Virus record (IMG/VR): IMGVR_UViG_3300050821_003880
Location: 1 to 36,469 of that record
From: a virus
Direction: 5' to 3' (one strand)
DNA: 36,469 bases
Below the pieces are notes generated by a model. That model saw nothing but the letters and a program-made list of their open reading frames with translations, was not told the origin of the DNA and made no database searches. Shown one piece after another: positions 3,071-28,344 of the stretch (position 1 is the first letter of the stretch; each line of letters begins with the position of its first letter). Both the position numbers and the translations under genes were made by a program.

Positions 3071-3355
3071 GTGGAGATCGTGCTCGAGAGCAACTACTAC
3101 GCGTTTTCGGCCCGCGAGGAGATGACCGCGGTCGTCAGGGTCGTCGCCGGCGCGCTCGACTATTCCAATCAGACGGGCGGGCCGTTCCGCGCGGCCGGTT
3201 CCATCGCGCGGGGCGAAACCCGCGAGTTCACCCAGCCGACGGTCGTCCTGGCTCACGAGAAGACGACGTTCGACATCGAGTACCCACCCCCGCCCAGCGA
3301 GGGCCCCTCGCCGCCACTACCTGACAACGGCGACGCCGGCGCCGAGGAGCCGTGA
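3071..3355 (+). CDS. Small hypothetical phage protein
   Basis: A 94-residue protein starting at GTG 3071 with GGAGG five bases upstream (3061-3065). The first 70 residues look like a compact beta-sandwich (IVLESNYYAFSAREEM, RETREFTQPTVVLAHEKTTF); the last 25 are proline- and acid-rich. I do not recognise a family. It lies between a collar fibre and the lysis genes and ends overlapping the next gene, so it may be a fibre accessory protein or belong to the lysis operon. No signal peptide or membrane segment is visible. Confidence 0.7.
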   Translation: MEIVLESNYYAFSAREEMTAVVRVVAGALDYSNQTGGPFRAAGSIARGETREFTQPTVVLAHEKTTFDIEYPPPPSEGPSPPLPDNGDAGAEEP

Positions 3356-3696
3356 GAGATTGGCGCGGACTAATCGCACTGATCCTCGCGGTCGGCGTCT
3401 CGATCGCGCTCGTCGCCGGCGTCCTGACCGCCGAGCTGACACCTACCCAGGTCACCTCGGAGGAGATCGCGTTCTTATCCACCCTCGGCGGCGCCTCGGT
3501 CGGCGCCATCGCCGCTTACCTCGGAATCCGACACCCAGACCAGAGGAGTGACATGACCACCGAAGATCCGGACACCACCACCGAGCCCACACCGACCGAG
3601 CCCGAGCCCGACGAGAACGGCGGCGAGGAGCAGACAACGCCGCTGATCGGCGACGACGAGGGCGAGGGCGAGGACGTCGGGCCGGACACCGACTGA
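3352..3696 (+). CDS. Two-helix membrane protein with acidic tail (holin/antiholin candidate)
   Basis: A 114-residue protein starting at GTG 3352. It has two hydrophobic stretches (about residues 6-29 and 37-59) followed by a hydrophilic tail extremely rich in Thr, Pro, Glu and Asp. It directly precedes the amidase, overlapping it by one base (TGATG). Position and topology fit a holin-family or holin-regulating protein, but there is a second two-helix protein at 4595, so one may be holin and the other antiholin or pinholin. The acidic tail is unusual, since holins usually end in basic residues; that argues for a regulatory role. Confidence 0.65.
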   Translation: MRDWRGLIALILAVGVSIALVAGVLTAELTPTQVTSEEIAFLSTLGGASVGAIAAYLGIRHPDQRSDMTTEDPDTTTEPTPTEPEPDENGGEEQTTPLIGDDEGEGEDVGPDTD

Positions 3697-4598
3697 TGTC
3701 CGCCCAGCCTCGCATCGTCACCCGCCGCGAGTGGGGCGCCGCGACGACGGTCCCCGGCAACCGCGGCGTCTCGCCCGGCAGCCGCCGGTACTTCGTCGTG
3801 CACTGGCCGGTGATGGGACCGCGCGACGAGCGCCAGTGGTGCCGCGACATCGAGCGGATGCACAGCAACCAAGGCTGGGCCGCCGCCCCGGGTTACAACT
3901 ACCTCGTCGGGATGAGCGGCGCCATCTTTGAAGGGTGCGGCCGGGACGTTCGCGGGATCCACTCACCGCCGCACAACACCGACGGCTGGGGCTGCTGCGT
4001 GCTGCAACCGTCGACCGGCGCCGGCGTCCCGACCGCCCCGATCTCACCGGCCGCCAAGGCCGCCGTCCGCACGCTGTACGACTGGCTGGGCTCGGTCGCC
4101 GGCCGCCCGCTCAGCCAGTGGTGGCACGGCCGCGACTACGCGACCGCCTGCCCGGGCCCGGACCTGCGCGAGTGGGTCGCCGGCGGGATGCAAGTCCCAG
4201 GCGGCGCGACGTCACCGCCGACACCGACACCAACCCCGACGACCGAGGAGGTCGACATGCTCACGTCCGCCGTGGCGGATAACGGAACCCTGCACGTCTT
4301 CGGCGCGACCGCCGGCGGGGTCTTCTACACCTTCCAGCCGCAGGGCAAGACCGGCTGGAACGGCGGCCAGGCCGGCAAGCGGGTCGCGACGCTGCAGGCG
4401 TTCGCGCCGGCGCCGAGCGGCAAGAAAATCAGCGGCCTGAGCGCGTGCAAGGCGTCGAACGGGGCCCTGCACCTGTTCGCCGAGATGACCGACGGGACCG
4501 TCTTCTACACCTGGCAGCCGAAGGGCTCCTCGGCCTGGAACGGCGGCGCCCCCGGGAAGGGCGTCGCGGCGCTGACCGCGTTCGCTCCGAAGCCATGA
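3696..4598 (+). CDS. Endolysin 1: N-acetylmuramoyl-L-alanine amidase with C-terminal propeller-like repeats
   Basis: Residues 1-165 form an Amidase_2/PGRP-type zinc amidase that cuts between muramic acid and the stem peptide. Zinc ligands appear to be His36 (VVHWP), His144 (WWHGRD) and Cys152 (ATACPGPDL), with Tyr68 in the active-site region. A Pro/Thr linker (about 170-184) leads to two tandem repeats of about 48 residues (NGTLHVFG...FYTFQPQG...WNGG and NGALHLFA...FYTWQPKG...WNGG) resembling lectin beta-propeller blades. No signal peptide is visible, so it needs a holin. An internal AGGAGG and ATG at residue 188 could make the repeat module separately. It overlaps the next gene by four bases. 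Confidence 0.9.
   Translation: MSAQPRIVTRREWGAATTVPGNRGVSPGSRRYFVVHWPVMGPRDERQWCRDIERMHSNQGWAAAPGYNYLVGMSGAIFEGCGRDVRGIHSPPHNTDGWGCCVLQPSTGAGVPTAPISPAAKAAVRTLYDWLGSVAGRPLSQWWHGRDYATACPGPDLREWVAGGMQVPGGATSPPTPTPTPTTEEVDMLTSAVADNGTLHVFGATAGGVFYTFQPQGKTGWNGGQAGKRVATLQAFAPAPSGKKISGLSACKASNGALHLFAEMTDGTVFYTWQPKGSSAWNGGAPGKGVAALTAFAPKP
4246..4259 (+). promoter_or_regulatory. Internal ribosome binding site and start inside endolysin 1
   Basis: AGGAGG at 4246-4251 is followed by five bases and an in-frame ATG at 4257. It lies exactly where the Pro/Thr linker ends and the repeat module begins. Translation from here would give a 113-residue protein holding only the two repeats. Separate translation of binding domains is known for several endolysins of phages of Gram-positive bacteria. 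The same arrangement occurs in endolysin 2. Confidence 0.6.
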
Positions 4599-4873
4599 GC
4601 ACGACCACGCCACCCGAACCGACCAGCGACACCAAGGGGCTGCCGGTCAACCGGATCGTCGCGTTCCTCGGCCCGTACATCGCGATCATCTCCGGGGCGG
4701 TCGCCGACTGGCTGCTGACCCATCTGAACGTCGGCGGGCTGTTTCACGACCGCGACCAGGTGAGCCGCGTCGTGGCGCAGCTCGTGGTGTTCATCGTGAC
4801 CGCCGGGATCGTGTGGCTCGGCCAGCAGAAGTGGCTGAGCGGCTGGATCGCCTACGAGCGACCGCGACCATGA
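4595..4873 (+). CDS. Holin-like two-helix membrane protein
   Basis: A 92-residue protein whose ATG at 4595 overlaps the amidase stop (ATGA). It has a polar N-terminus, two membrane segments (RIVAFLGPYIAIISGAVADW and VSRVVAQLVVFIVTAGIVWL) separated by a short charged loop, and a basic C-terminus. This is the layout of class II holins and of the two-helix holins often found in actinophages. It lies between two cell-wall hydrolases, so it most likely forms the lesion through which both escape. It also overlaps the GH19 gene by four bases. Confidence 0.8.
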   Translation: MSTTTPPEPTSDTKGLPVNRIVAFLGPYIAIISGAVADWLLTHLNVGGLFHDRDQVSRVVAQLVVFIVTAGIVWLGQQKWLSGWIAYERPRP

Positions 4874-5598
4874 GGGTCGACACGCTGATGAGCGCGATGC
4901 CCGGCCTGGCCCGCTCGACCGCGGAGGCCTACCTCCCGCCGATGGAGGTCGCGCAACGCGAGCGCCAGATCACCAGCGAGGCGCGCTCGAGGATGTGGCT
5001 CGCGCAGGTCGGACACGAGTCACTGTCACTGCGCTACATGGAGGAGATCGCCGACGGCTCCGCGTACGAGGGCCGCAAGGACCTCGGGAACACCCAGCCC
5101 GGCGACGGCAAGAAATACAAGGGCCGCGGCCCGATCCAGATCACCGGCCGCTACAACTACACCGCCGCCGGCGCCGCGCTCGAGCTCGACCTCGTCAACC
5201 GCCCCGAGCTCGCCGCCCAACCCGAACACGCGTTCCGGGTCAGCGCCTGGTGGTGGGCCACGCACGGGCTGAACGAGATCTCCGACACCGGCGACGTCGT
5301 CGCCGCGACCAAGCGGATCAACGGCGGGCTCAACGGGCTCGCCGACCGGCAGTCGCGCTATGACCGCTGTCGCATGCTCGGCGCGGCGGTGATCCCCACC
5401 CAACCACCGACAGAGGAGGAGACCGTGGCAATCACCGCCGCCGTCAACGCCGCGGGCGCGCTGCACGTGTTCGTTGAGGACCAACGCGACGGCTCGATCT
5501 GGTACACGTGGCAGCGCCAGGGCGACGCCGCCTGGCAGGGCGGCGCCCCAGGGAAGGGCGTCGCCGGGTTGCAGCCGTTCGCGCCGGCGCCGAAATAG
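4870..5598 (+). CDS. Endolysin 2: GH19-type glycosidase with C-terminal propeller-like repeat
   Basis: The ATG at 4870 overlaps the holin stop. The 242-residue enzyme has a glycoside hydrolase 19 fold: AQVGHES with the probable catalytic Glu50, a second acidic pair at 58-59, and [15 protein letters not shown] around residues 83-97. Phage GH19 enzymes cut the glycan backbone of peptidoglycan. After a short linker the last 50 residues are one copy of the same repeat found twice in endolysin 1 (AGALHVF...WYTWQRQG...WQGGAPGKG). An in-frame GTG with a perfect AGGAGG at the module boundary (residue 186) could express the repeat alone. Confidence 0.88.
5414..5427 (+). promoter_or_regulatory. Internal ribosome binding site and start inside endolysin 2
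   Basis: AGGAGG at 5414-5419, a five-base spacer and an in-frame GTG at 5425 mark the boundary between the catalytic part and the repeat module. The product would be a 57-residue single repeat. Sequence and spacing match the internal start of endolysin 1. Confidence 0.6.
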
Positions 5599-25194: not shown

Positions 25195-26595
25195 ATGTAT
25201 GCCGTGGCGGCGCTCGATTCGCTGACCGACCCGCTCAGAATGGTCGACAGTTTCGACCGCGAGCTCGACAAGCGCGCGGGCCCGATCAACCGCTATTGGG
25301 AGTACTACCGCGGCGAGGCGAAGGTGCTCTACGCGACCGTGAAGTTCCGCGAGAGCTTCGGCCGGCTGCTGTCCGAGATCTCCGACAACTGGTGCGAGGT
25401 CATCGTCGACTCCGCGGTCGAACGGCTGCGCGTAACCGGGTTCCGGTTCGGCGGCGACGACACCGCCGACGAGGAGGCCTGGTCGATCTGGCAGGCGTCC
25501 TACCTCGACGCCGACCAGGTGCTCGCACACGAGGAGTGCGGCGTCTCGTCGCTGTGCTACCTGCTCGTCGAGCCGCCCGGGCCCGACAACGACCTGCCGC
25601 GGATCTCGGTGCTGTCGCCGATCGAGGCGATCACGCTCAACGCGCCCGAGAACCGCCGCCGGCGGATCGCCGGCTACCGCCGGTTCATCGACGAGGCCGG
25701 CATCCCCGAGGCCCGCCTGTACCTTCCCGACCGGGTGCTGGTGCTGTTCGGCAAGGCCGACAAGACCGAGCAGGACGGCGGCACCTTCGGCGATTGGGAG
25801 ATCGTCGGCGAGCTCGACAACCCCGCGGGCGTGGTGCCGATGGTCGAGATGCTCAACAAGGCGCACCTCGGCCGCGGCGGCAACAGCGACCTGGACCCGG
25901 TCCTGAGCAAGCAGGACATGATCAACAAGCTCGCCGTCGACATGATCGTCAACAGCGAGTACGCCGCCTTCCACCAGCGGTGGGCGACCGGGATCGAGCT
26001 CTCGACCGACAAGCGCGGCAGGCCGGTCCCGCCCGAGCAGTTTCTCGCCGGCGCCGACTCGGTGTTCATCTCCGAGAACCCCGACGCCAAGTACGGCGCG
26101 TTCCCGATCTCCGACGGCACGATCTTCGTCCGCCAGATCGAAATGCTGGTGCAGCACGTCGCCGCGCAGACGCGAACGCCGCCGCACTACCTGACCGCCG
26201 GGCTGGGGCAGTGGCCGTCCGCTGACAGCCTGCGCGCCAGCGAGGAGGGGCTCGTGCAGAAGTGCCGGCGCAAGATTCTCGGGTTCGGCGAGAGCTGGGA
26301 GGAAGGGATGCGCATCGCGTTCCTGCAGCTCGGCGACGTCGACCGCGGTCGCGCGCAGTCGCTCGAGTCGATCTGGGACAACCCGCAGCGCGTGTCGATC
26401 GCGGCGATCACCGACGCGACCGTCAAGATGCGCAAGTCACTCGGGGTGCCGCGCCGCGCGACCTGGCGGATGCTCGGCGCCTCGCCGCAGGAGATCGACC
26501 AGTGGGAGAACGAGGCGCAAGACGAGCAGCCGCTGCCGTCAGAGGCCGTGCCGACGCCGGCCGGCGCTACGCTCCCCGCGACGCCTGAGCAATGA
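25195..26595 (+). CDS. Portal protein, SPP1 gp6-like
   Basis: A 466-residue portal starting at ATG 25195, one base after the terL stop. It shows the SPP1-type pattern: RYWEYYRGEAKVLYATVKF, NWCEVIVDSAVERL, VPMVEMLNKAHLGRGG, QDMINKLAVDMIVNSEYAAF, PSADSLRASEEGLVQKC. It forms the dodecameric ring at the capsid vertex through which DNA is packed. The Pro-rich acidic C-terminus overlaps the scaffold gene by four bases. Confidence 0.92.
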   Translation: MYAVAALDSLTDPLRMVDSFDRELDKRAGPINRYWEYYRGEAKVLYATVKFRESFGRLLSEISDNWCEVIVDSAVERLRVTGFRFGGDDTADEEAWSIWQASYLDADQVLAHEECGVSSLCYLLVEPPGPDNDLPRISVLSPIEAITLNAPENRRRRIAGYRRFIDEAGIPEARLYLPDRVLVLFGKADKTEQDGGTFGDWEIVGELDNPAGVVPMVEMLNKAHLGRGGNSDLDPVLSKQDMINKLAVDMIVNSEYAAFHQRWATGIELSTDKRGRPVPPEQFLAGADSVFISENPDAKYGAFPISDGTIFVRQIEMLVQHVAAQTRTPPHYLTAGLGQWPSADSLRASEEGLVQKCRRKILGFGESWEEGMRIAFLQLGDVDRGRAQSLESIWDNPQRVSIAAITDATVKMRKSLGVPRRATWRMLGASPQEIDQWENEAQDEQPLPSEAVPTPAGATLPATPEQ

Positions 26596-27122: not shown

Positions 27123-27315
27123 CAGTCGCGGGACGATAAAGCTGTCGAACTTGACGTGATCTAGCCGAACGGTGCCGCCGCGGCGGGCGATCCCCGAGGG
27201 GCGCGATGCCTCTGCACCGTCGCTGAGATCACGGACAGCGGCCCTTCCTCAGCTCGCCGGCGCGATGCGGCGAGCCGGGCGTAACAACTGAACACGCTCG
27301 CATGAGGAGGACCCC
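27123..27315 (+). promoter_or_regulatory. Leader of the capsid gene with hairpin
   Basis: The 193-bp gap before the capsid gene has no ORF of note. GCTCGCCG (27252-27259) and CGGCGAGC (27268-27275) form an 8-bp hairpin, and AGGAGGA at about 27304 is the strong ribosome binding site of the capsid gene. TTGACA at 27119 has no good -10 partner. The region may boost or separately initiate capsid transcription. Confidence 0.4.
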
Positions 27316-28344
27316 GTGTCGTTCACCGACGTAATCGACCGCCCCGGCGCCTCGGCGCTGATCCCGACCGAGCAGGCTCGCGAGATCATCCAGCTGCTGC
27401 CCGAGACCTCGGTCGCGATGCGGCTCGCGCGCCGCGCTCCGAACATGAGCGCGCACCAGCGCCAGGTGCCGGTCCTGTCAGTCCTGCCGATGGCGTACTT
27501 CGTCTCCAGCGGCGGACTGAAGCAGACGACCAAGACCGGCTGGGAAGGGCTGATGTTGACGGCCGAAGAAATCGCCGTGATCGTCCCCATTCACCAGAGC
27601 GTTCTTGACGACTCTGCGTACCCGCTGTGGAACGAGATCCGTCCGCAGGTCGCCGCCGCGATCGGGCTGACCCTCGACCGCGCCGTGTTCTTCTCGACCA
27701 ACAAGCCGACGACGTGGCCCACCGGCGTCAACGACGGCGCTCGCGCGACGCTCCCGGCCAGCAGCATGGTCGTCACCCGCGGGACGCCAGCGGCGCAGGG
27801 CGGGATCGCGGGCGACCTCTCGAACCTCTACACCGCGGTCGAACGGAAGGGATACGAGGTCTCCGGGCTGCTGCTCAACCCGGCGCTGTACCGCGGGTTC
27901 CTGCGCCAGGCCCGCAACACGCAGGGCGACCAGCTCGCCGAGCTGATCGGCGGCGACGTCTACGGGTTCGAGCCGACATTCGGGCTGCGCGGCGGGTGGC
28001 CGGCGCCGGGCGCGAACGTCACCGAGGGGTTCGCCGGCGACTTCAGCCAGATGATCATCGCGATTCGCGAGGACATGAACTGGCTGATCTCGAGCGAGGC
28101 CGTGATCTCCGACGAGGACGGCGCGGTCGTGCTGAACCTGTTCCAGGCCGACAGCGTGGCGCTGCGGGTCGTGTTCCGCGTCGCGATGCAGATCTCCGAG
28201 CCGGTCACGCCGGAACAGCCAACGAAGGCGAACCGCTACCCGTTCGCGGTGATCCAGGGCACCGGCGCCGTCTCCGACGAGGCCGCCGCGGAAGCTGCCG
28301 CCGAGGACGAGCCGGCCGAGACGACGAGGCGGGCGCGCCGCTAA
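27316..28344 (+). CDS. Major capsid protein, HK97 fold
   Basis: A 342-residue capsid protein from GTG 27316 with AGGAGGA upstream. Typical HK97-fold features: helical N-arm (ALIPTEQAREIIQLLPETSV), E-loop region (RQVPVLSVLPMAYFVSSGGL), VPIHQSVLDDS, spine helix (NEIRPQVAAAIGLTLDRAVF), and P-domain/A-domain strands through VALRVVFRVAMQI. The C-terminus carries an Ala/Glu-rich tail. No prohead protease domain is fused. It is the main shell protein. Confidence 0.93.
   Translation: MSFTDVIDRPGASALIPTEQAREIIQLLPETSVAMRLARRAPNMSAHQRQVPVLSVLPMAYFVSSGGLKQTTKTGWEGLMLTAEEIAVIVPIHQSVLDDSAYPLWNEIRPQVAAAIGLTLDRAVFFSTNKPTTWPTGVNDGARATLPASSMVVTRGTPAAQGGIAGDLSNLYTAVERKGYEVSGLLLNPALYRGFLRQARNTQGDQLAELIGGDVYGFEPTFGLRGGWPAPGANVTEGFAGDFSQMIIAIREDMNWLISSEAVISDEDGAVVLNLFQADSVALRVVFRVAMQISEPVTPEQPTKANRYPFAVIQGTGAVSDEAAAEAAAEDEPAETTRRARR

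Follow-up and report, generated by a model that had tools for sequence, protein, structure and literature searches.

Predicted internal translation starts at the border of propeller-blade modules in two lysin genes of one phage

Two neighbouring lysin genes of one virus each contain, between the sequence for the catalytic domain and that for the C-terminal module, a strong Shine-Dalgarno box followed by an in-frame start codon. Are these sites used by ribosomes, and what would the resulting short proteins do? The window, i.e., the whole stretch of DNA analysed, corresponds to an IMG/VR virus record of 36,469 bases and belongs to an uncultured phage. Its relevant features are:

3696..4598, plus strand: full-length lysin 1 (300 aa), with an Amidase_2 domain, a disordered Pro/Thr linker and two PLL-type blades
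4246..4251, plus strand: internal Shine-Dalgarno AGGAGG of lysin 1, duplex energy -12.3 kcal/mol, the strongest among 10 internal in-frame starts
4257..4598, plus strand: predicted internal product of lysin 1 from ATG 4257 (113 aa), two complete propeller blades
4595..4873, plus strand: small protein between the lysins (92 aa) with hydrophobic stretches, ATGA overlap with both neighbours
4870..5598, plus strand: full-length lysin 2 (242 aa), with a GH19 domain, a short linker and one PLL-type blade
5414..5419, plus strand: internal Shine-Dalgarno AGGAGG of lysin 2, duplex energy -11.9 kcal/mol, the strongest among 8 internal in-frame starts
5425..5598, plus strand: predicted internal product of lysin 2 from GTG 5425 (57 aa), one blade

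Both genes encode the domain order of a lysin, a catalytic domain followed by a C-terminal binding module, as judged from Pfam, PHROG and the PLL-type module. Lysin 1 matched PF01510 (E 1.7e-5) with 25.6 bits, slightly below the 26-bit Pfam cut-off, and a PHROG endolysin (5.6e-27); lysin 2 matched PF00182 (E 3.9e-13) and a PHROG endolysin (1e-59). The C-terminal repeat common to both lysins (51% identity) is present in two copies in the amidase and one in the GH19 lysin, and the GH19 copy is by score closest to repeat 2 in some relatives and to repeat 1 in others. The module presumably binds the cell wall. No confident match was obtained in the family search for the 92-aa protein, which from its position may be a holin.

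In the amidase gene the box is followed by the spacer TCGAC and by ATG at 4257-4259, in frame at codon 188 of 300. In the GH19 gene the spacer is AGACC and the start GTG at 5425-5427, in frame at codon 186 of 242. The first-pass annotation had described these boxes, spacers, start codons, frames and their position at the linker/module border exactly as they stand in the sequence; its statements that the catalytic domains are unrelated (distinct Pfam families) and that a shared repeat follows both sites were likewise accurate. An in-frame start with a ribosome site between catalytic domain and module comprises the sequence signals of a Type II internal translation start site (iTSS), the established kind of internal start that yields the binding domain alone (PMC12203907). 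Lysins are known in which an internal start yields a product limited to the binding domain, and this product assembles with the full-length protein (PMC9430671, PMC7098653, PMC4777826). According to predictions by Pinto et al. (2022), about half of the lysins of Gram-positive phages have internal starts; four were confirmed by expression, and a complex of 1:5 was observed (PMC9430671). In the ring formed by LysIME-EF1, three short chains accompany a single full one (PMC7098653).

The window genes resemble the Type II iTSS endolysins LysIME-EF1, Lys170, CTP1L, CD27L, CS74L and LysP7951 in that one gene, with a shared stop, contains an in-frame Shine-Dalgarno and start where the last catalytic domain gives way to the binding domain. 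The known representatives form heteromers, e.g., 1:3, 2:2 and 1:5 (PMC9430671, PMC7098653, PMC12203907). They differ from the present case in the binding module, which here is predicted to consist of PLL-type propeller blades, and in the number of lysins: one phage has two (window) or three (the contig shared by L003 and L010, and the L107 contig) with differing catalytic domains, and two lysins per phage have the internal start in each of these three cases. Mycobacteriophage Ms6 LysA and the Pollywog lysin (Type I) are actinophage lysins that also have an in-frame internal start (PMC3314691, PMC9430671); their short product retains a catalytic domain, whereas the product predicted in the window is the binding module alone.

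It had been argued in the first-pass annotation that two such boxes with equal spacing are unlikely by chance. This argument fails as stated, both in motif counts and under synonymous shuffling. The motif AGGAGGNNNNNRTG occurs 6 times in the window against 0.38 expected; two of these begin ordinary genes (at 3071, and at 27316 for the major head gene), another two lie in frame within other genes (tail-fibre, 19009; portal, 26243), and the remaining two are the lysin sites. The start of the major head gene (27305-27318) is itself AGGAGG-N5-GTG, the same layout as at the lysin site at 5425. A count of AGGAGG-N5-RTG was rejected as proof, since two genuine gene starts and two unrelated sites within genes contribute to the excess. 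The equal N5 spacing is little coincidence because the in-frame arrangement xAG GAG Gxx permits only 2, 5, 8 or 11. An equally strong box was retained in 75% of the synonymous shuffles of the amidase gene, because EEV in a GAG-biased gene spells AGGAGG; box and start were both retained in 1.6% of the shuffles of the GH19 gene. In the sampled genes of the window, 8 of 326 internal in-frame starts reach -10 kcal/mol, both lysin sites included. On window evidence alone the lysin sites exceed chance weakly.

These numbers leave room for the view that the box arises incidentally from a linker that is acidic and rich in Glu, in a genome that writes this residue as GAG, and that the internal product is neither made nor needed. 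This view draws on the high retention of the amidase box in the shuffles and on the occurrence of AGGAGG-N5-GTG in frame within two other genes (portal and tail-fibre). Relatives of the module bear directly on this view. Searches of IMG/VR gave a sample of 15 lysins (window included) with the module or a close variant on 10 contigs, with catalytic domains of the families Amidase_2, GH19 and VanY. Type A modules are present in 10 lysins: the window amidase and GH19 lysin, the amidases L003, L004, L005, L006, L008 and L107, the more distant Amidase_2 lysin L007, and the GH19 lysin L009, which is on the same contig as L004. Type B modules, with one blade each, are present in five: the VanY-type lysins L010 (on the contig of L003), L107, L108 and L109, and the GH19 fragment L102 (on the contig of L006). 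A tblastn search of cultured phages yielded no relatives of the module, and neither did the patterns applied to the collection of bacterial and archaeal genomes.

All 15 lysins with module types A and B have a start codon at the module border, in the same relative position (ATG in 11, GTG in 3, TTG in 1), and this start has the strongest Shine-Dalgarno among the internal in-frame starts of its gene in 14 of them; in L005 it ranks third of 14. Energies of -9 kcal/mol or lower were found at the border in 10/15 lysins versus 3/137 other internal starts of the same genes, and five relatives (L004, L005, L009, L102 and L108) have weaker boxes of -5.6 to -8.4 kcal/mol. The peptides encoding the box vary among relatives (EEV, EEE, EED, QEA, PEV, KEI, KEG), as does the spacer; nucleotides are therefore kept while amino acids change. 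Homologues that keep Glu-Glu and lose the box, named beforehand as the case that would speak against an internal start, were sought; instead, relatives with QEA, PEV, KEI and KEG were found to keep both box and start. The border residue alternates between Met, Val and Leu, with Val encoded by GTG (3/3) and Leu by TTG (1/1); in the same genes GTG accounts for 29% of the Val codons and TTG for 5% of the Leu codons. The pattern spans Amidase_2, GH19 and VanY catalytic domains, and the site is retained in modules with just 39-76% protein identity to those of the window. With peptide and codon usage fixed, the Fisher combination of synonymous shuffles over the 15 genes indicated a moderate excess of boxes (p 0.018), a value that serves as a guide only because the genes are related. 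Synonymous shuffles alone were rejected as proof, the p value being merely 0.018.

The in-frame AGGAGG-N5-GTG within the portal gene (window 26243-26256) was used as a control site and followed in four homologues. GTC replaces GTG in all four portal homologues, including one at 71% identity in which the local peptide and the box are preserved. The lysin site is considered real because it is conserved in relatives, whereas at the portal control site the start codon is lost. At the position equivalent to Met1, the second repeat has Gly or Ala in 8/8 aligned two-blade modules (alignment read by eye), and for this reason the fold does not seem to require Met at the start of the module. Taken at the codon level, the comparison with relatives strongly supports the predicted internal start. 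A by-product of linker composition is an unlikely explanation, given that the box persists without Glu-Glu, that the border holds a start codon throughout with Val and Leu occurring there only as start codons, and that the portal control lacks the start codon in its homologues.

Other lysins were examined for comparable sites. The contig of L003 and L010 and that of L107 (1862-4558) each have three lysin genes near one another (GH19, VanY-type and amidase), all of which end in PLL-type blades of differing subtypes; the internal start is found only in the amidase and the VanY-type lysin and is absent from the third module type, that of the GH19 lysins of L010 and L107. The GH25 lysin of L109 has a weak GTG site inside a blade and is a doubtful case. 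Among 35 other distinct GH19 lysins, a strong internal start was located 3' of the catalytic domain in 10 lysins (98 in-frame tail starts) and in 1/173 in-frame starts within the catalytic domain, in agreement with Pinto et al. GH19 lysins whose C-terminal modules are unrelated and whose catalytic domain is followed by an in-frame start with a strong Shine-Dalgarno include L014, L015, L016, L022, L023, L029 and L055; in L015, GGAGG-N7-ATG precedes MALTDAEQRELLDG, and L016 has a similar site.

A conserved start might also serve the neighbouring genes. The internal site could mainly load ribosomes for the overlapping downstream gene (the holin candidate or the next lysin) and yield no useful module, as the gene junctions might suggest: the amidase stop and the next start overlap as ATGA at 4595-4598, and the start of lysin 2 overlaps its upstream gene likewise. 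Against this, the site is placed exactly at the blade border and no nearer the stop, it is retained in L007 although the next likely gene there does not overlap, and in the window a gap of 9 bases separates the GH19 gene from the next one, which has a separate start. Ribosome loading as the main role is therefore improbable, slightly more so than a by-product of the linker. Still less probable is that the module derives from a free-standing gene and brought along its own ribosome site, which is now unused. Module and start are indeed found behind several catalytic domains; however, the searches turned up no module gene standing on its own, and an unused site would decay, yet this one is kept in diverged modules with changed codons.

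The module resembles the PLL/PHL lectins of Photorhabdus in repeat sequence (E 2e-6; 2.4e-6 for 5c9l by hmmsearch) and in predicted blade fold. The AF2 model of the 113-aa module (pLDDT 88, pTM 0.81) consists of two four-strand blades, and its best matches are PLL/PHL lectins (Foldseek probability 1.00, E 2e-3; VIA: Z 10.6, 2.6 A over 91 residues). The AF2 model of the full amidase, with an overall pLDDT of only 72, shows disorder at residues 168-184 and places the first blade strand at 188-193. Since this strand begins at 188, the module has the internal start as its first residue, and according to the model the internal product of lysin 1 would comprise whole blades and nothing else. The first-pass annotation had guessed at a beta-propeller completed from separately made blades; the part concerning the fold is borne out, the modules being PLL-lectin blades by sequence and by model, and the part concerning completion is carried over into the proposal below. 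PLL lectins have all blades in one chain, whereas the phage modules have one or two per chain (two in lysin 1, one in lysin 2) behind a lytic enzyme, and for this reason they are classed only as PLL-type blades, having the repeat sequence and the four-strand blade fold, and not as a PLL lectin. PLL/PHL beta-propellers have seven blades.

Closing the ring of a propeller normally takes several blades. Chains of one or two blades cannot do so alone, and we therefore consider assembly of free blades with full enzymes most likely. Two-blade units have an assembly model in RSL, the Ralstonia solanacearum lectin, whose two-blade chain closes a six-bladed propeller as a trimer (PMC10306066). RSL itself is a free lectin that does not come from inside a lysin gene; it was not seen among the matches listed in the fold searches, an absence that carries no weight, and no sequence match was shown, and hence it serves only as an assembly model.

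We propose that each lysin gene is a two-product gene with a Type II internal translation start. Ribosomes coupled from the upstream gene would produce the full enzyme. The native ATG of lysin 1, which shares bases with the stop codon of the upstream gene, is preceded by a weak Shine-Dalgarno of its own (-3.2 kcal/mol), and ATG 4870 of lysin 2 overlaps the upstream stop without a clear one (-2.2 kcal/mol). Ribosomes loading at the internal AGGAGG would start at 4257 or 5425 and produce the wall-binding module only (113 aa or 57 aa). The weakness of the native boxes relative to the internal ones suggests that free modules may be more abundant than full enzymes, in line with known heteromers in which each full enzyme is joined by several short chains. 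The free blade units would pair with each other and with the blades ending the full enzymes, forming a wheel that carries one or a few catalytic domains. We put the probability of this reading, in which free one- and two-blade subunits join full enzymes in a closed wall-binding propeller, at roughly three in four; the signals and the fold are well supported, and from them we infer that the products are made and assemble. A more tentative extension, which we regard as possible but rather doubtful, is that blades from the two lysin genes pool into mixed propellers bearing both the amidase and the GH19 glycosidase, and in relatives also the VanY-type peptidase.

The mechanism is not new, since Type II internal starts are already established. 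As far as the literature consulted shows, the novelty lies in the propeller-blade module, in the fact that one phage has both module and start in two different lysins, and in codon-level evidence that points to selection on the internal start. A literature search for endolysins with propeller binding domains found no paper. Internal starts of lysins are usually assessed singly, gene by gene, from predicted strength; codon-level conservation offers independent evidence that a start is selected, and here the start accompanies one type of binding module that is joined to various catalytic domains. Should the blades assemble, internal translation would have produced a natural split propeller and possibly a multi-enzyme lysin with a fixed blade number; a mixed wheel, if it forms, would be a multi-enzyme lysin built from interchangeable blades.
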